Shown piece after piece: positions 32,784-40,672 of a DNA stretch of 64,000 nucleotides. This DNA comes from Candidatus Enterococcus ferrettii (GTDB lineage Bacteria; Bacillota; Bacilli; Lactobacillales; Enterococcaceae). The notes below the pieces were generated by a model. It saw only the letters and a list, made by a program, of their open reading frames with translations. It was not told the origin of the DNA and searched no databases. Both the position numbers and the translations under genes were made by a program. The DNA lies in NCBI RefSeq assembly GCF_017377655.1, contig NZ_JAFREL010000026.1:37874-101873 (forward strand), given 5' to 3'. The number at the start of each line of letters is the position of its first letter. Position 1 is the stretch's first letter.

Positions 32784-33539
32784 ATGGTTAGATATAAGGC
32801 AGTTATTGCTTACGATGGGACCAACTTTCATGGATTTCAGCGGCAGCCGAATGGACGAACGGTTCAAGAAGAAATTGAAAATACGCTCCAGAAAATGAAT
32901 AATGGACAGCCAATCATGATTTTTGGATCGGGCCGTACTGATGCAGGGGTCCATGCAATAGGTCAGGTGATTCACTTTGACTTTCCCCAGGAACGACCTG
33001 AGGAGCGTATGCGTTTTGGTTTGGATACTCAGACACCGGATGATATTGCCGTTCGTTCAATTGAAATTGTATCTGAGGAGTTTCATGCTCGTTATGATGT
33101 ACAAGAAAAAACGTATCAATTCAAAGTTCAAATCCAGAAACCTCGTAGCCCTTTTCTACGTTTCTACGCTGCTTATTATCCGTATCCTTTAGACTTGGAT
33201 AAAATTCAGCAAGCTTTACCAGATTTGCTGGGAACTCATGATTTTACTTCCTTTTGTGCAACAGGTAGTTCGATTGAAGATAAGGTGCGGACGATTTATC
33301 AGGCAGATATGGAGGTAAACGCTGATCGTAGTGAGATTACTTTCATTTTTCGGGGGAATGGTTTTTTATACAAAATGATTCGTATTCTTGTTGGAACGCT
33401 GCTAAAAATTGGTAATGGTCGTTTAGCAGCTGACAGCCTCCCTGAAATAATTGCTCAAAAAGATCGAAATGCTGCGGGACCTACTGCTCATCCAGAGGGA
33501 CTGTATTTAGCAGAAGTGAAATATAAAAAAACAAAATAG
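32784..33539 (+). CDS. truA: tRNA pseudouridine(38-40) synthase
   Basis: 251 residues from the ATG at 32784 (TTAGGAG upstream). Catalytic aspartate in GSGRTDAGVHA, plus FHARYDVQEKTYQF and FRGNGFLYKMIRILVGTLL. In B. subtilis truA is followed by rplM-rpsI; that pair is absent here. Confidence 0.96.
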   Translation: MVRYKAVIAYDGTNFHGFQRQPNGRTVQEEIENTLQKMNNGQPIMIFGSGRTDAGVHAIGQVIHFDFPQERPEERMRFGLDTQTPDDIAVRSIEIVSEEFHARYDVQEKTYQFKVQIQKPRSPFLRFYAAYYPYPLDLDKIQQALPDLLGTHDFTSFCATGSSIEDKVRTIYQADMEVNADRSEITFIFRGNGFLYKMIRILVGTLLKIGNGRLAADSLPEIIAQKDRNAAGPTAHPEGLYLAEVKYKKTK

Positions 33540-33559
33540 TTGGATTATTCGTAATTTAG

Positions 33560-33595
33560 GATCAATAGTATTGATAGTCTATTGATCTTTTTTTT
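33560..33595 (+). terminator. truA terminator
   Basis: GATCAATAG (33560-33568) pairs with CTATTGATC (33579-33587), followed by eight T. Confidence 0.88.
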
Positions 33596-33710
33596 GCGCA
33601 TTTTTTGTATATTTTTGTCAATAAATATGCTTAAAGTCGTATTATTTGATAAAAAAATCCAAATTTTGTTAAACTGATTATATATTGAAATAACATGAGG
33701 AGGAATTGTT

Positions 33711-34757
33711 ATGAACAGAGGACTTAGAAGATATTGGCAGTCTGACGCAAGAGAAGCTGGTTTTAATATTTCGTGGGGATCGATTTTTGCAGGAGTAGTA
33801 ACATTCTTTGCACTTCTATTTACTTTTTCTTTAATTGGTTCGGCAATCGGATTCGGCGTGGTTGAGCCAACTTCCAGCAATCCCTTAGAGGGTGTTGGAA
33901 CGAGTGTGATTATTTGGACAGTAGTGACTATGGTTTTATCTTTCTTTGGCGGCGGTTTTGTTGCCGGAATTGCAGCAAGAAGAGTAGGTATCTTGCATGG
34001 CTTTTTAACTTGGGCTACTAGTGTGTTTGCGTTGATTGCAATTTTATCATATGTGACAATTGGTGCCTTTTCAGCAGTAGGTTCTTTATTTGGAAATGTG
34101 ACATCAGCAATTGGTGAGGGAGTAGAAACTGTTGCCTCTGGTACTGGTGAAGCTATTTCTAAAGGCTTTGAGGAAGTCTCTGATAATATTAGCTCGGTTG
34201 ATACCCAAAATCTTCAAAATGAAGTATCTCAAGTATTACAAGATACAGATATTCCAGAGCTTCAGCCAAATTATTTAAGAGATCAACTATCTGAAGCAAC
34301 TGATGAAATTGCGGAAGCCAGTAAACAGATTGTTACGGATCCAAATGATTCCGAACAAGTTATTAATAACCTGTCAAATAAGTTAGAGAATCGGGCAAAA
34401 ACAATTGGCGACTCAGTAGATGAACAAGCTATTGCGAATGCTGTAGAATCTAATACTGATTTAAACCAGCAGCAAGCACAAGAAGCTACCCGAAATATTG
34501 TTGATGGATTGCGCACAGCATCTAATCAAGCACAATCTCAAATTAGAAATGCCCAAGATTCATTAGATCAAGCGCAAAGTGAATTGAATGACGCAATTAG
34601 AGAAGCTCGTCAAACTGCTGAGGAAGCAGCACAAGCAACCTCGCAAGCATCTATCTGGGCTTTTGCCGCAATGATAGCGGGATTAGTTTTAACTTCTGCA
34701 GCGGGATATTTAGGCGCTAATCTAGTAAAAGATCCAGTTGTTGAAGACAAGATGTAA
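33711..34757 (+). CDS. membrane protein with long helical extracytoplasmic or cytoplasmic region, unknown function
   Basis: 348 residues; I do not recognise the family with certainty. Three hydrophobic helices lie in 1-130 (WGSIFAGVVTFFALLFTFSL, then IIWTVVTMVLSFFGGGFVAG, and LTWATSVFALIAILSYVTIG). Residues about 135-310 form an acidic, Q/N/E/A-rich amphipathic region with repeated heptad-like segments (NAQDSLDQAQSELNDAIREA) and no cysteines. A single C-terminal helix (ASIWAFAAMIAGLVLTSAAG) anchors the other end. The arrangement resembles stress-related membrane proteins with apolipoprotein-like helices. SD GAGGAGG. Its terminator is about 130 nt downstream. Confidence 0.75.
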   Translation: MNRGLRRYWQSDAREAGFNISWGSIFAGVVTFFALLFTFSLIGSAIGFGVVEPTSSNPLEGVGTSVIIWTVVTMVLSFFGGGFVAGIAARRVGILHGFLTWATSVFALIAILSYVTIGAFSAVGSLFGNVTSAIGEGVETVASGTGEAISKGFEEVSDNISSVDTQNLQNEVSQVLQDTDIPELQPNYLRDQLSEATDEIAEASKQIVTDPNDSEQVINNLSNKLENRAKTIGDSVDEQAIANAVESNTDLNQQQAQEATRNIVDGLRTASNQAQSQIRNAQDSLDQAQSELNDAIREARQTAEEAAQATSQASIWAFAAMIAGLVLTSAAGYLGANLVKDPVVEDKM

Positions 34758-34956
34758 AAAAGCTTTAATAAAAATGATGAAAAGGAAAAAGTATGCACGT
34801 AATCCAAAAAGGTTAAAAAATACTCTTGGAGTTCTATAGACTGATGGGAGCAGGTAAAGGATACGGCGCTTTAGATCCTATGGGGAAAAGGCGTAGAACA
34901 ATAATCTAACGCCTTTTTTTCTTGGTTTAAAGAGAAAAGGTCAAGGAGGGAACACA
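34758..34956 (+). promoter_or_regulatory. upstream region of the Rnf-like operon
   Basis: A weak promoter (TTAAAA 34813-34818, 16-nt spacer, TATAGA 34835-34840) and a GGAT/ATCC hairpin precede the terminator at 34886-34920. Two 21-codon reading frames occur (34778-34843 and 34844-34909), both rich in K/R, neither with a strong ribosome binding site. Confidence 0.4.
34886..34920 (+). terminator. intrinsic terminator before the rnfC-like gene
   Basis: AAAAGGCGT...ACGCCTTTTTTT with an inner AGA/TCT, stem of 8 bp or more, then seven T. It ends 36 nt before the rnfC-like start, which leaves no room for a promoter after it. Confidence 0.85.
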
Positions 34957-36297
34957 ATGAGAAGAACAGCACCAGGGAAGTTTACCGGGGGATTTAGTTT
35001 TGCTCCATCAACAGAAAAGTTTAAAGAAAAGTGGAAGGTTAAACAAAGTGAAGTTGTCACTTTCGTCCCTGAACGGGTATATATTCCAACTCAACAGCAT
35101 ATTGGTGCGCCACCAAAATTGGTAGTTGACGTAGGCGACCGTGTGAAGGCAGGAGATTTGATTGCAAGGGCAGGAGATTTTGTCAGTGCGAATACCCATG
35201 CAACCATAGCTGGAACAGTCATCGATCTTTTGGATTGGCCAGATAATTCAGGCAATAAAGTTCCAACCATTGTGATAAAGAAAGAAGAAAATGAAGTAAC
35301 TAAGGGAAGTAAGCAAGCAGAGTCTTTTGAGTCATTGGCTAAGGAGACATTAATCGACCGGGTGTCTGCTGCTGGCGTGGTAGGGATGGGGGGAGCAACT
35401 TTTCCTACCCATGTTAAGTTGACCGTTGATGATGATGCGGAGGTAGAAACCATTGTGTTGAATGGAGCAGAATGCGAACCTTTTTTAGAGGCAGATAATC
35501 TATTAATGCAGGTGGAAAGCAGAAAAGTATTAACTGGTGCCCGAATTGCTAAAAAAATCTTAGGTGCTAAAAAAATAATTATCGCTGTCGAAGATGACAA
35601 ACCAGAAGCAATTCAAAAAATGCGAGAAGTTACAGAGTCGTTTACAGATGTTTCTATTGAAGCTGTTGCTACTAGTTATCCGCAAGGTGGTGAAAAACAA
35701 TTACTAGAAGGTTTGTTAGATGTTGAGGTAGATTTAGAGGGATTACCGGTAGATTCAGGTGTCTATTTAATGAATGTAGCTACATCTGCAGCAGTGGCAG
35801 ATGCAGTGGAGCGGCAGGAACCATTAATTAATCGGCTTTGTACAGTGACGGGGGATGTCAAAAATAAGCAAACGGTGTCTTGTCCGATTGGAACTTTGAC
35901 AGGGGATTTGATAGATTTTTGTGGGGGTTTTGAAGGGGATCCGCGAAAGATATTTGTTGGAGGACCGATGATGGGACAAGCGATTGATACTTTGGAAGTG
36001 CCAATTACTAAGTCAAGCAATGGTCTGGTGGTTATCAATACAGAGCATGCAATGTATTACGAGGAAAGTCCGTGTATTCGTTGCAATCTATGTGCTGAAG
36101 TATGTCCGATGCGGTTAGAACCACAAAACTTAGATCTTTATTATCGAGCGGGAGATTACAAACGTTGTCAGGATTTGATGGCGGATGCTTGTATTAATTG
36201 TGGTGCATGTACCTACGTTTGCCCGGCAAGACGAAATTTAGCAAAAAATATTACGGCAGCTGCAGGTAAAATCGAAGAATTGTTACAGGAGGCTTAA
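34957..36297 (+). CDS. rnfC: RnfC-like electron transport complex subunit
   Basis: 446 residues. N-terminal barrel/hybrid region with IPTQQHIGAPPKLVVDVGD and FVSANTHATIAGTV (about 43-87); flavin/NADH-binding region with GVVGMGGATFPTHVK (140-154) and NGAECEPFLEADNLLM (169-184); SLBB-like segment; two 4Fe-4S clusters, C373/C376/C379/C383 and C412/C415/C418/C422. In Rnf complexes this is the NAD(H)-reacting peripheral subunit. Followed after 2 nt by the RnfD-like gene. The usual RnfB and RnfG partners are missing here. Confidence 0.88.
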   Translation: MRRTAPGKFTGGFSFAPSTEKFKEKWKVKQSEVVTFVPERVYIPTQQHIGAPPKLVVDVGDRVKAGDLIARAGDFVSANTHATIAGTVIDLLDWPDNSGNKVPTIVIKKEENEVTKGSKQAESFESLAKETLIDRVSAAGVVGMGGATFPTHVKLTVDDDAEVETIVLNGAECEPFLEADNLLMQVESRKVLTGARIAKKILGAKKIIIAVEDDKPEAIQKMREVTESFTDVSIEAVATSYPQGGEKQLLEGLLDVEVDLEGLPVDSGVYLMNVATSAAVADAVERQEPLINRLCTVTGDVKNKQTVSCPIGTLTGDLIDFCGGFEGDPRKIFVGGPMMGQAIDTLEVPITKSSNGLVVINTEHAMYYEESPCIRCNLCAEVCPMRLEPQNLDLYYRAGDYKRCQDLMADACINCGACTYVCPARRNLAKNITAAAGKIEELLQEA

Positions 36298-36299
36298 AA

Positions 36300-37364
36300 A
36301 TGAAAAAAGATGCAAAACAGGTGGATCATGTTTCTGGTAAAAGTGCTCAAGTTTTTGCTGAGGCACAAAAGAATTTCCCTCCGCCAGAAGCCAATCCTCA
36401 TATTCGTGGAGATAATACGACTAGAAATATTATGATGTGGATGATTATTGCTTTAGTACCTTCAATGTTGGGAGCAGGTTATTATTTTGGCATTCGTGTT
36501 TGGGGTTTGTATTTAATTGCTATTGTCACTGCTCAACTTTGCGAAATTGTTTGGTTTAAATTATGTAACCGCGAATTGACTTGGGATCTGAGTGCAATAG
36601 TTACAGCTATTTTATTAACTGCTAACATGCCACCATCAGCACCTTGGTATTTTCCGCTGATTGGTTCAGCCTTTGCTATTATTGTGGTAAAAGAATTTTT
36701 TGGTGGAATTGGTTTTAACTTTATTAATCCAGCACTAGGTGGACGTGCCTTTTTAGTGGCTCTGTTTTTTACTAAGATGTTTGAAATTAGCTGGCCGGCT
36801 CCTCCTTTTAGTCGAATTACACCGGATGTTGTTTCCAGTGCTACTCCGTTGGCTATATTAAATGAAGGAGGCAGTTTATCTGGTCAAGAACTTTTCAATA
36901 CCTTCATTGGGAATATTGGTGGGCGCTTAGGTGAAACAAGTACTTTATTAATTTTGATTGGTGGAGCCATCTTGCTGTACAAGAAAATTATTCATTTGCG
37001 AATTCCATTGACTATGCTGGGGACGATTGCGGTGATCGCTTTTGTTTTTGAAGGTCAAAATTTTTTCGCAGCGGATTTAACGACTGTTCTGGGTTATGTT
37101 TTTGGTGGTGGTGCCGTTTTTGGCGCTTTCTTTATGGCCACAGATTATGCCTCTACCCCATCTACTAGAGCAGGAGAATACTTCTTTGCTTTTTGTTGCG
37201 GCGTGTTAGTCATGTTATTTCGTTACTACGGAGTTACTGAAGAAGGAGTCAGCTATAGTATTTTAATCATGAATTGTTTAACACCATTGATTGATTATCT
37301 TTTACGCAATCGTGTTTTGGGCGAAGAGGGGAATCAGTTATTAAATATTAAATGGAATCGATAG
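36300..37364 (+). CDS. rnfD: RnfD-like flavinylated membrane subunit
   Basis: 354 residues, about nine helices. Family motifs: GGIGFNFINPALGGRAFL (135-152), DVVSSATPLA with the expected FMN-accepting threonine T182 (the common SGAT is SSAT here), GAFFMATDYASTP (275-287) and GVSYSILIMNCLTPLIDYLL (316-335). RnfD carries a covalent FMN and moves electrons through the membrane, coupled to ion transport. An ApbE-type flavin transferase would be needed; none is in this window. Confidence 0.87.
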   Translation: MKKDAKQVDHVSGKSAQVFAEAQKNFPPPEANPHIRGDNTTRNIMMWMIIALVPSMLGAGYYFGIRVWGLYLIAIVTAQLCEIVWFKLCNRELTWDLSAIVTAILLTANMPPSAPWYFPLIGSAFAIIVVKEFFGGIGFNFINPALGGRAFLVALFFTKMFEISWPAPPFSRITPDVVSSATPLAILNEGGSLSGQELFNTFIGNIGGRLGETSTLLILIGGAILLYKKIIHLRIPLTMLGTIAVIAFVFEGQNFFAADLTTVLGYVFGGGAVFGAFFMATDYASTPSTRAGEYFFAFCCGVLVMLFRYYGVTEEGVSYSILIMNCLTPLIDYLLRNRVLGEEGNQLLNIKWNR

Positions 37365-37410
37365 AGTGGCAGGTTAATTTTATAAAATTGAGTCCAGGGA
37401 GGGTGTAAAA

Positions 37411-37992
37411 ATGACGATAGCGAATCGGTTAGTATTTTTCGGATGTGTTTTATTTACCTGTTATTGTGCACAAAAATACAAGCAAAAAAGCGTGCCTGCT
37501 GAGAGCCCTAGTTCAGTTGCTCGTGTAGCCTACGCAGGATTATTAAACTATGCGGCCTACTGCGTTGCAGGATTGTTATTTGCTTTGTTAGTTACTGAGG
37601 TTGGAATTCCAGGAACTGAAAGTGTAATGGAAGTTGTGTATGCAGGTGGGCTGGCTCTAATAGTCAGTGGAGTCACGTTATTTGCACCAAAAAGTAAAAT
37701 ATTTTTGACCGTAGAGTTAAAAAAAATGATGGTTACAGTTGTTTTCTTGTTAAGCACAGCGACGTTTTCTCGAATAGATGCCGTTGATGTTGCTGAATTT
37801 ATTTATCAAGTAATTATTTATGGTGCCATGTACTTTGTGTTTAGCTTGGCTTATATTGGGGCATTGGATCGAATGTCAATGGCGACAATCCCTGCTTTCT
37901 TAAAAGGAATTCCTATTGGAATGATTACGATGTTTTTGATGTATATGAGTTTTTCTTTCTTTAATGGTGTTTTTTTTGGTTCTTTATTTTAA
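37411..37992 (+). CDS. divergent RnfA/RnfE-like integral membrane subunit
   Basis: 193 residues, six helices, the length of RnfA/RnfE. The C-terminal block IPAFLKGIPIGMITMFLMYM aligns with the RnfA/NqrE ending 'vPapFKG..I.MItaGLM'. In canonical RnfA/E, one cysteine in each half binds a 2Fe-2S cluster; here cysteines occur only in the first part (C12, C17, C19, C51), and the matching segment of the second half (VVFLLSTATF, about 111-120) has none. Last gene of the three-gene operon; SD GGGAGGG. Confidence 0.65.
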   Translation: MTIANRLVFFGCVLFTCYCAQKYKQKSVPAESPSSVARVAYAGLLNYAAYCVAGLLFALLVTEVGIPGTESVMEVVYAGGLALIVSGVTLFAPKSKIFLTVELKKMMVTVVFLLSTATFSRIDAVDVAEFIYQVIIYGAMYFVFSLAYIGALDRMSMATIPAFLKGIPIGMITMFLMYMSFSFFNGVFFGSLF

Positions 37993-37993
37993 A

Positions 37994-38045
37994 GTGGAAA
38001 TATAGAAAAGCGGTCGAAGGCAAAAATCCTTTGACCGCTTTTTAT
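37994..38045 (+). terminator. bidirectional terminator
   Basis: AAAGCGGTCGAAGG and CCTTTGACCGCTTT around CAAAAAT, with T-run to the right and A-rich left flank. Ends the Rnf-like operon (plus) and the converging YfhO gene (minus). Confidence 0.85.
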
Positions 38046-40672
38046 TATTCTTTTGGTAGTCCTGTATGAGCCCCTCTAGTGCGTTTGACTTTAGGCTTAC
38101 GTTTCAGCCATTGCAAATAAAGAACAAATAGTAAAATTGAGATGATGAAAGAAGCAATCCCTGAAGCCAGACCTTCTGGCAGATAAGTAAAGGTTACTCT
38201 ATGTTTACCTTTTTCAATCGGGATGCTGACAAAGGCATCTTCAAAAGCGGTAATTTTTACTTTTTTGCCATCTACTCTTGCTTGCCAGCCCTCATCATAA
38301 GGAATGGTAGTAACTAATGTCTGATCGGTATCAGCTTCTACTGTTCCAGTGGCACTGTGTTTACCAACAGTCATTTCCACTCCATTATCCTGAAGCTTGC
38401 GGCTGGCTAAATGATAAGCTACTGTATCTAAAGCCAAAACTTGTGGATTTTGGAAGCTGATGGATTTTGTACCATAAAAGCTGGCAGTAAAAGTTACGTA
38501 GGTTTCTGTCGGGTAGTACCCCAAATCATAATATTGTCCATTGATATTGATTTGGGTTTTCCGAGTTCGTCCGTTAACAGTCACGCTAGCACTTGAGCTT
38601 TCCAACTCACTAAAATCATAAGGGAATAAGCTAAAATAGGCCTGTGTATTAGCCGGCACTCGAACTTGCCAAGTAACCTGTTTAGCTACATTGCTTTCCT
38701 CTTCAGCGATAGTCATGATATTTCCAGTATTAGTCACAACAGCATTCTCTGTACCAACTTCTTGGATTGGCAGAAACTGGTAATATTGGTAGTTTTCATC
38801 GGCTAAAGCATTATATAACTGAGTTTGTGTACCTAAGTTATCATTAGGCAATGGCTTCAATTTAGTTACATCTTTAGGTGCTTTGAAAGCTAAAGGCAAC
38901 TGGTACTCATTTTCATATAAATGATAGTCGTCCTTTTTGCTTACCTCGTTAAACCCATATTTAGCTAAATCATCGGTTTTAGCAATGTTGTACTTAATTC
39001 CAGTAAAGGAATCCATTAACAGCGTGTTATTAGGATAGCGAATATTCAAATTAGTTCCTCGCGAACGAAAACCAAGTTGGTCTAAGTAGCCAGATGAGTG
39101 GCGATTGCGAATAGATGAGAACATGCTGATGCCACTATACCCATAGTTAAAAGCATCATTCGAAGAAACTGGATCAAGATTTTCTAAGCGATAAAAGCTG
39201 TCATTTTCTTCTTGTGTCTGATTAACCAATGTCTTGATGCTCGGATAGGGATCTGTGTACAGACTACGGGACGCGTAATTCCAATCATTGAGGATACCAT
39301 GAACCATGGAATCTGCATTAACAAAGGCTTCTGTTCCCATCAGTAACAAGAACAAAACTGCTAGAATCTTCACAGGTATTTTATTAAGATAATATCCAGT
39401 AACTAAAAGTGCATACACAGCCAGAAAAGCTAACGATAGATAGAAGGAATGATTGGCAATGTAACTATAATCATTTCCCTTCATGCCCCAAAAAATCGAA
39501 AAGATAGCGATTATCATTAACAAAATAGCAACTAGCTGTATACTGTTTTCCCGTGTAAGCTTTTCCCAGCCCCAAGCACCTAAGGTAATAATCAAAAAGG
39601 ACAGTAGGTAAGCATAACGGAATAAGAACATATTTGGTGCATGCATCCCGTGCCAAAACAGATTCATAGGAACGATATAAAAGCTGGCAATCAAAAGTGC
39701 GCCAATTGAACCGTAAAGAATTTTTTGTTTCCAATGGATCCGTTTCGAAACAAAGTAGAACAAGCAAAGTGCTAGCGGAAACAGACCAATATAAATAAAT
39801 GGAATTGACCCATATTTAGTTGTATCATAAACGCCGACCATATTCTTAGCGACGAAATCCCACCAACCAGTTGCTTCAGTTTTAAATTGGGTAATTTTCG
39901 TTAGTTCTTCCCCATTCGTTCTTAGATCAACCACAGCCGGTAAAATCATAATCATAGAGGCAAAACCGGCCAACAACGAAGTGATCCCATAAGGCAAAAG
40001 ACTTTTCTTATATCGTTTCCAATCGGTGAACAGACGAGCCGCAAAATACAGCACGGAAAAAATACCGATCATAAAGCCCATATAGAAGCTGGTCAAAAAC
40101 AACATTAAATAGGAAAGAAAAAGAACAGTTGGCTTTCGTTTATCCATTACCCGATTGATTCCTAAAATCACCAATGGCAGATAAACAAAGGCATCCAGCC
40201 ACATAATAATTTCTGAATGAGCAGTAGTAAAAGACATCAAAGCATAGCTGACACTTAGTGCAACTTTTGACCAATCGGGTAGACGAAAGCTCTCTTTAGC
40301 ATAAAACCAAAAGGCCAGACCGGCTGAACCAATTTTCAGCAAGGTGATTACATATAAGGCATCTGGCATATACTGATTGGGAAAGAAAATCACCAGTGGC
40401 GTAAATATACCGCCTAGATAATAAGAAACTAATGAAAGGTAATTTAACCCCATTGAGGCGTTCCAAGTGTAAAGCAAACCCTGTTTGCCCAAGAGCATAT
40501 TTCTAAAGCTAGCATGAAAATTTGAAAATTGCGAAAAGGCATCACTAGCCAATACACTGCGGCTGGAGCCAGGATAAATTCCGACAGTTAAATAAGCAAT
40601 AATCATTAATAGTAAAGGAATACCAAAGCTGGCTAATAGGTACCAGCGATTTTCACGAAGATATTTTTTCAA
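38045..40672 (-). CDS. yfhO: YfhO family membrane protein
   Basis: About 875 residues, 12 or more helices, then a large extracytoplasmic beta-rich domain (about 480-840) and a final helix with a basic tail (KRKPKVKRTRG). YfhO is a GT-C-type membrane protein proposed to glycosylate lipoteichoic acid in Gram-positives. The chosen start is a TTG with GGTGAT upstream (MKKYLRENRWYLL); the frame also opens at a TTG at 40708, which has no ribosome binding site. Confidence 0.85.
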   Translation of the reverse strand: MKKYLRENRWYLLASFGIPLLLMIIAYLTVGIYPGSSRSVLASDAFSQFSNFHASFRNMLLGKQGLLYTWNASMGLNYLSLVSYYLGGIFTPLVIFFPNQYMPDALYVITLLKIGSAGLAFWFYAKESFRLPDWSKVALSVSYALMSFTTAHSEIIMWLDAFVYLPLVILGINRVMDKRKPTVLFLSYLMLFLTSFYMGFMIGIFSVLYFAARLFTDWKRYKKSLLPYGITSLLAGFASMIMILPAVVDLRTNGEELTKITQFKTEATGWWDFVAKNMVGVYDTTKYGSIPFIYIGLFPLALCLFYFVSKRIHWKQKILYGSIGALLIASFYIVPMNLFWHGMHAPNMFLFRYAYLLSFLIITLGAWGWEKLTRENSIQLVAILLMIIAIFSIFWGMKGNDYSYIANHSFYLSLAFLAVYALLVTGYYLNKIPVKILAVLFLLLMGTEAFVNADSMVHGILNDWNYASRSLYTDPYPSIKTLVNQTQEENDSFYRLENLDPVSSNDAFNYGYSGISMFSSIRNRHSSGYLDQLGFRSRGTNLNIRYPNNTLLMDSFTGIKYNIAKTDDLAKYGFNEVSKKDDYHLYENEYQLPLAFKAPKDVTKLKPLPNDNLGTQTQLYNALADENYQYYQFLPIQEVGTENAVVTNTGNIMTIAEEESNVAKQVTWQVRVPANTQAYFSLFPYDFSELESSSASVTVNGRTRKTQININGQYYDLGYYPTETYVTFTASFYGTKSISFQNPQVLALDTVAYHLASRKLQDNGVEMTVGKHSATGTVEADTDQTLVTTIPYDEGWQARVDGKKVKITAFEDAFVSIPIEKGKHRVTFTYLPEGLASGIASFIISILLFVLYLQWLKRKPKVKRTRGAHTGLPKE

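Follow-up and report, generated by a model that had tools for sequence, protein, structure and literature searches.

C-D-X, a conserved RnfC-RnfD operon with a cluster-free RnfA-type partner in Enterococcaceae

What can an operon do that encodes the RnfC and RnfD subunits of an Rnf complex and none of the subunits that face ferredoxin? The question is raised by three genes in a 64,000-nucleotide stretch of DNA from Candidatus Enterococcus ferrettii (contig NZ_JAFREL010000026.1, positions 37,874 to 101,873), referred to as the window. A preliminary description, made from the sequence alone, had recognised a full RnfC, a full RnfD and a small RnfA/E-like membrane subunit, and these observations hold: the list of open reading frames of the window contains the three genes at the positions given there, all on the forward strand, and RnfC and RnfD score far above the curated cut-offs. 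We name the operon C-D-X after the rnfC-like gene (34957–36297, 446 residues), the rnfD-like gene (36300–37364, 354 residues) and gene X (37411–37992, 193 residues). C-D-X is a real conserved module that does not look like a fragment, and its anatomy is well supported. As far as our searches show, Enterococcaceae have here a variant of Rnf/Nqr that has not been described before; the portions of the open-access literature searched contained no description of such an operon.

RnfC scores 452.9 bits against TIGR01945 (cut-off 245.95). It comprises the RnfC barrel domain, a Nuo51-type flavin mononucleotide (FMN) domain, an SLBB domain and two CxxCxxCxxxC motifs for 4Fe-4S clusters, which span C373–C383 (36073–36105) and C412–C422 (36190–36222). 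All eight cluster cysteines are kept in 23 of 23 aligned rows, comprising the window, 20 relatives, a canonical RnfC and one from a bare RnfC-RnfD pair. The closest solved structures are 9eri_C and 7zc6_C, and the best sequence match in the PDB is 9eri_C from A. woodii (E-value 2.7e-93). The second protein is an NQR2/RnfD membrane subunit, scoring 331.7 bits against PF03116 and 262.4 bits against TIGR01946 (cut-off 207.05), with 7zc6_D from C. tetanomorphum as its best PDB sequence match (E-value 1.6e-66). Its T182 (codon at 36843–36845) aligns with Thr153, the FMN-bearing residue of the C. tetanomorphum protein, which makes it the predicted site of covalent flavinylation by ApbE, and the threonine is present in all 20 C-D-X RnfDs. 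The Na+ path of C. tetanomorphum RnfD has been discussed in terms of Asn90, Asn124, Glu185 and Asp248, which are kept in 19, 20, 20 and 20 of these 20 sequences, respectively. The position of N109 in the window RnfD is asparagine in 19 of the 20 rows.

Family models give no clear match to X: Pfam returned a single row with an E-value of 0.16, NCBIfam returned none, and in the window genome PF02508, the RnfA/E model, recognises no gene beyond the two canonical ones. A profile search and the predicted fold both identify X as an RnfA-type protein, in agreement with the earlier label; the model has the six-helix fold of the RnfA/NqrE family, and its structural placement was made by VIA-align on Foldseek's top 1000. 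These results supersede a single-sequence search of PDB sequences, in which RnfA (8ahx_A) reached only an E-value of 0.5 below five unrelated rows, and an hhalign comparison with two canonical sequences only, which gave a probability of 10 despite an E-value of 0.0032. To the preliminary description we add that the conserved [2Fe-2S] cysteines of RnfA/E are not conserved in X. The alignment of X covers 19 rows, namely the window and 18 of its 20 relatives (the broken X genes at loci L048 and L052 were left out), and the structure alignment covers the window and 10 of the 15 loci from the species-genome scan described below. The C-terminal segment, residues 166–193 with transmembrane helix 6 (37906–37989), is conserved; the C-terminal helix of RnfA touches helix V of RnfD in Rnf (PMC9588780). 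Without the [2Fe-2S] ligands, X would differ from an ordinary RnfA/E even as a dimer.

The operon appears to end with X. An intrinsic terminator-like hairpin of 16 pairs (38005–38043, forward strand) follows the gene, as had been claimed, and has the longest stem of the six terminator-like sites in the 3.4-kb region, where 2.6 are expected. Genes for RnfB, RnfG or a second RnfA/E protein were absent among the listed open reading frames of at least 80 residues around the operon, again as described earlier. Compared with canonical Rnf (RnfCDGEAB; A. woodii 9eri and C. tetanomorphum 7zc6), C-D-X has full-length RnfC and RnfD homologues with the tested cofactor sites, including the FMN/NADH domain and both 4Fe-4S motifs of RnfC and the threonine of RnfD predicted to carry FMN, and X has the predicted RnfA fold. 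It lacks RnfB, the ferredoxin-side subunit, RnfG with its extracytosolic FMN, and the RnfA/RnfE pair with its four invariant [2Fe-2S] cysteines, having instead one RnfA-type protein and no RnfE type. Because RnfB, RnfG and the A/E cluster were looked for and are missing from the operon, C-D-X is not a member of Rnf, and the operon alone cannot be an ordinary ferredoxin:NAD+ oxidoreductase, as the preliminary description had reasoned.

Neither does C-D-X coincide with other relatives of Rnf. It resembles the Na+-translocating NADH:quinone oxidoreductase (Na+-NQR, NqrA-F) in that RnfD is homologous to NqrB, X has the predicted NqrE fold and rnfB is absent, but the operon encodes neither NqrF nor NqrC, X lacks the cluster ligands, and RnfC carries two 4Fe-4S motifs that are absent from the cofactor-free NqrA. 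The "Nqr/Rnf-like" two-subunit systems of Meheust (PMC8238504, PMC10979944) are likewise minimal RnfD-based units, proposed for one-way NAD(P)H-to-outside transfer. They are described as combining an RnfD-type domain fused to a C-terminal NAD-binding domain with an RnfG-type subunit, the RnfD flavinylation site not being conserved, whereas C-D-X has a separate RnfC, an RnfD matching PF03116 only (no PF00175 fusion) with its threonine kept, an RnfA-type subunit, and no RnfG-type (FMN_bind) gene in the operon. Also related are the bare RnfC-RnfD pairs of Enterococcaceae, in which rnfC and rnfD are also adjacent and the FMN threonine is kept in 18 of 18. These pairs have no X, and no other rnf gene adjoins them in the 18 inspected loci (L016 6797–9102; L147; L149–L164); the N109 position is S or T in all 18, as opposed to asparagine in canonical and 19 of 20 C-D-X RnfDs.

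All carriers found belong to a single family. X is present in 21 of 105 Enterococcaceae genomes from 8 of 17 genera, and the preliminary description's proposal to survey the arrangement across Lactobacillales gave the same boundary: among 395 evenly drawn genomes, for which at most eight candidates per genome were scored, every carrier belongs to Enterococcaceae. A single short motif, scanned across 84,980 species genomes, matched at 15 loci, all in Enterococcus or Tetragenococcus; more distant members will escape such a pattern. Named carriers include E. pallens, E. florum, E. casseliflavus, E. innesii, E. dispar and E. canintestini. Gene order is the same in all 20 loci outside the window. 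Sorted by eye, their neighbourhoods make up about nine groups, L056 being too short for judgement. Two of the loci have disrupted reading frames, L048 in both D and X and L052 in X. An aldehyde dehydrogenase gene lies near the operon in 10 of the 20 loci, but these represent two enzymes of about 37–40% identity, and we gave the association no weight. Between the window and E. pallens, whose X is 88% identical, rough ratios of nonsynonymous to synonymous substitution rates (dN/dS) are 0.049 for C, 0.018 for D and 0.049 for X at a dS of about 1.5 or more. Across the window and three relatives the maximum over computable pairs is 0.132, dS being incomputable for five of six pairs of C, two of six of D and three of six of X.

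In a tree of 58 RnfDs, for which the tool warns of long branches, the 20 C-D-X rows (the window and 19 of 20 relatives, the D of L048 being split) form one clade (support 100/99) and 20 canonical rows form another (98/82; the canonical D of genome G007, L165, is also split and was omitted). The bare pairs fall into two groups, one beside each clade. In a class-wide search, PF03116 scored above the cut-off in 37 of 398 genomes and gave only weak, mostly split hits outside Enterococcaceae (best E-value 3e-12). Within the 105 Enterococcaceae genomes, RnfB and RnfA/E hits co-occur in 22, and 18 have an RnfD hit with neither X nor RnfA/E; ten of these 18 were inspected, and the RnfD hit of G088 carries stop codons. 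Among the 21 C-D-X carriers, only six have both RnfA/E and RnfB hits (G000, G006, G011, G013, G040 and G092). The other 15 gave no PF02508 hit above the cut-off (that of G051 lies below it and not at X) and no PF04060 (RnfB) hit; G065 and G066, both among the 15, are 77% and 76% complete. Within the limits of genome completeness, supply of the missing subunits in trans cannot explain C-D-X in the 15.

The window genome (5.4 Mb in 157 contigs) is among the six. The preliminary description had suggested searching it for rnfB, rnfG, rnfE and apbE, naming missing subunits encoded elsewhere in the genome as grounds to abandon its reading, and all four were found: contig C67 carries a complete RnfCDGEAB cluster (L009 1104–13176), and there are two ApbEs, one adjoining NusG_II and PF07456 genes. 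The missing subunits are thus literally encoded elsewhere, with RnfB and RnfG each in this separate canonical cluster and RnfG only there, but the operon is not explained away, because the cluster comes with C and D subunits of its own and because 15 of the 21 carriers lack RnfB and an RnfA/E hit above the cut-off. The genome has three RnfDs, the third being encoded on contig C13 as half of a bare RnfC-RnfD pair. Open reading frames 3' of the C67 cluster look like genes for flavodoxin, NfnAB-like proteins and pyruvate:ferredoxin oxidoreductase (named by eye) and suggest, together with the cluster, a ferredoxin-based metabolism. Contamination as the source of the cluster (assembly contamination 4.7%) was rejected, since its RnfD nests on a short branch with 18 other enterococcal canonical RnfDs. 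Contig C10 (L010 8372–9778) encodes a 127-residue FMN_bind protein, judged by eye to have a probable membrane anchor at the N terminus, adjoining flavodoxin-like and MarR-like genes (likewise named by eye); it is a possible outside partner for RnfD proteins.

What remains of Rnf in the operon suggests a function. The C-D half of Rnf connects internal NAD(H) with the outer FMN of RnfD, and the B-A/E-G half connects ferredoxin with the same point (PMC9588780, PMC12174285). With the latter half gone, what is left is most simply read as transfer from NADH to an acceptor outside, and the preliminary suggestion of NADH-to-membrane or NADH-to-outside transfer still seems to us the best account. We lean, with somewhat more confidence than doubt, towards C-D-X being a pared-down descendant of Rnf, a membrane complex dedicated to oxidising NADH that serves as a one-way conduit for electrons from NADH to the outside. 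The three proteins would assemble into one complex, in which the FMN of RnfC accepts a hydride from NADH, and the hydride would be split into single electrons that reach RnfD via the two 4Fe-4S clusters. RnfD would move them across the membrane from a riboflavin on the inner side to the covalent FMN on T182 at the outer side. There an extracytosolic acceptor would take them up, probably a flavin, but perhaps a flavinylated protein or some other diffusible oxidant. X may take the RnfA position as a structural partner docked on RnfD and would carry no electrons, as the [2Fe-2S] ligands are missing. The ferredoxin arm (RnfB, the RnfA/E cluster and RnfG) would have been discarded, and C-D-X would work, by analogy, as Rnf does on its NAD(H) side, but in the outward direction.

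The genes around one carrier locus lend support to the outward reading. In G008, NusG_II, PF07456 and divergent apbE genes lie directly 5' of rnfC. The NusG_II proteins are presumably of the EetA type. PF07456 is the EetB family, a flavin adenine dinucleotide (FAD)-binding subunit of the ECF type, required in Listeria for FAD export for ApbE-type flavinylation (PMC9973259). The G008 genome has ApbE and RnfD and no FMN_bind hit, so that RnfD is the sole ApbE target found of the two classes searched; further classes of ApbE target exist, DUF2271 among them. The same pattern of ApbE and RnfD without FMN_bind is seen in G018, which has a bare RnfC-RnfD pair. Several points weigh against the outward conduit. 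Adjacency to flavin genes is known from one carrier, G008, whose X contains an in-frame stop, and in solved Rnf the FMN of RnfD is buried and served by RnfG. Moreover, ApbE is nearly universal in Enterococcaceae (101 of 105 genomes), for which reason we dropped the co-occurrence of RnfD with ApbE (54 of 54) as main evidence. In another C-D-X carrier, G037, an FMN_bind hit lies about 1 kb from an ApbE hit on contig C23. Pairs of cad and apbE were said in 2019 to occur only in genomes without rnf genes (PMC7074142); G037 looks like an exception, its FMN_bind gene being a candidate cad only.

Electrons might instead leave RnfD within the membrane. C-D-X would then be an NADH:(demethyl)menaquinone oxidoreductase, with the riboflavin of RnfD reducing a membrane quinone as in Na+-NQR, a reading we regard as possible but doubtful. 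The tested flavin-site residues are kept in RnfD, and its homologue NqrB can hand electrons to quinone (PMC12174285); in Na+-NQR, however, electrons enter at the opposite end, through NqrF, the NqrD/E cluster and NqrC, and NqrA is cofactor-free, while RnfC here is a full NADH-side module. An inward run seems to us distinctly unlikely: an outside donor would reduce the FMN of RnfD and electrons would pass via RnfC to NAD+, while RnfD might export Na+. Within Rnf, the C-D segment runs this way in the forward reaction, and the retained Na+-path residues would fit, but no gene for a donor-oxidising partner was noticed adjoining the operon, and the published Na+ models also use RnfG and the A/E cluster, both of which are missing.

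Two further explanations would tie the operon to a complete Rnf. As an alternative C/D module, C-D-X could swap into canonical Rnf with G, E, A and B supplied in trans, for which the full set in the window genome and the RnfA/E and RnfB hits in five other carriers could be cited; we consider this very improbable in view of the 15 carriers without such hits and of the separate RnfD clade with its own RnfA-type partner. Decay from a full cluster, which the preliminary description had named as a second ground against its reading, is hardly credible and finds no support in the tree, where C-D-X RnfDs stand apart from canonical enterococcal ones. The broken frames in two of 20 relatives would fit a remnant, but the RnfDs form a single clade, the module occurs in 8 of 17 genera with its gene order fixed, dN/dS is low and the cofactor motifs are intact, all of which argues against decay.

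In the surroundings of the operon in the window, promoter-like sites are at chance level (7 found, 7.9 expected), and an Rfam scan of 33500–38100 gave a single row with an E-value of 1, far under the gathering score. Between the upstream membrane-protein gene and rnfC, terminator-like stems were seen by eye at 34860–34925, a stretch that is well conserved in relatives L039 and L040, not in L041, and has no credible Rfam match. Further 5' of the operon, 33711–34757 encodes a 348-residue protein that seems to have a membrane segment at either end with a long polar region between them; no Pfam or NCBIfam family scored above the cut-off for it.

The Na+ site of Rnf is disputed, being placed in RnfD in one model and in the RnfA/E pair beside its cluster in another (PMC12174285). 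With RnfC, an RnfD that keeps the ion-path residues, and a cluster-free RnfA fold, C-D-X would separate the two models in one complex. It could itself be a minimal redox-linked Na+ transporter, in which RnfD alone would couple flavin-to-flavin flow between NADH and the outside acceptor to Na+ movement, and X would act through its conserved C-terminal helix on the ion path of RnfD; we hold this to be rather unlikely, but if true, the A/E [2Fe-2S] cluster and RnfG would be dispensable for ion coupling, the point on which published models differ. With X, a well-studied bioenergetic machine gains a protein family for which neither Pfam nor NCBIfam has a model. If C-D-X is the outward conduit that we favour, enterococci would gain an outlet for NADH in addition to the route of extracellular electron transfer described in Listeria.
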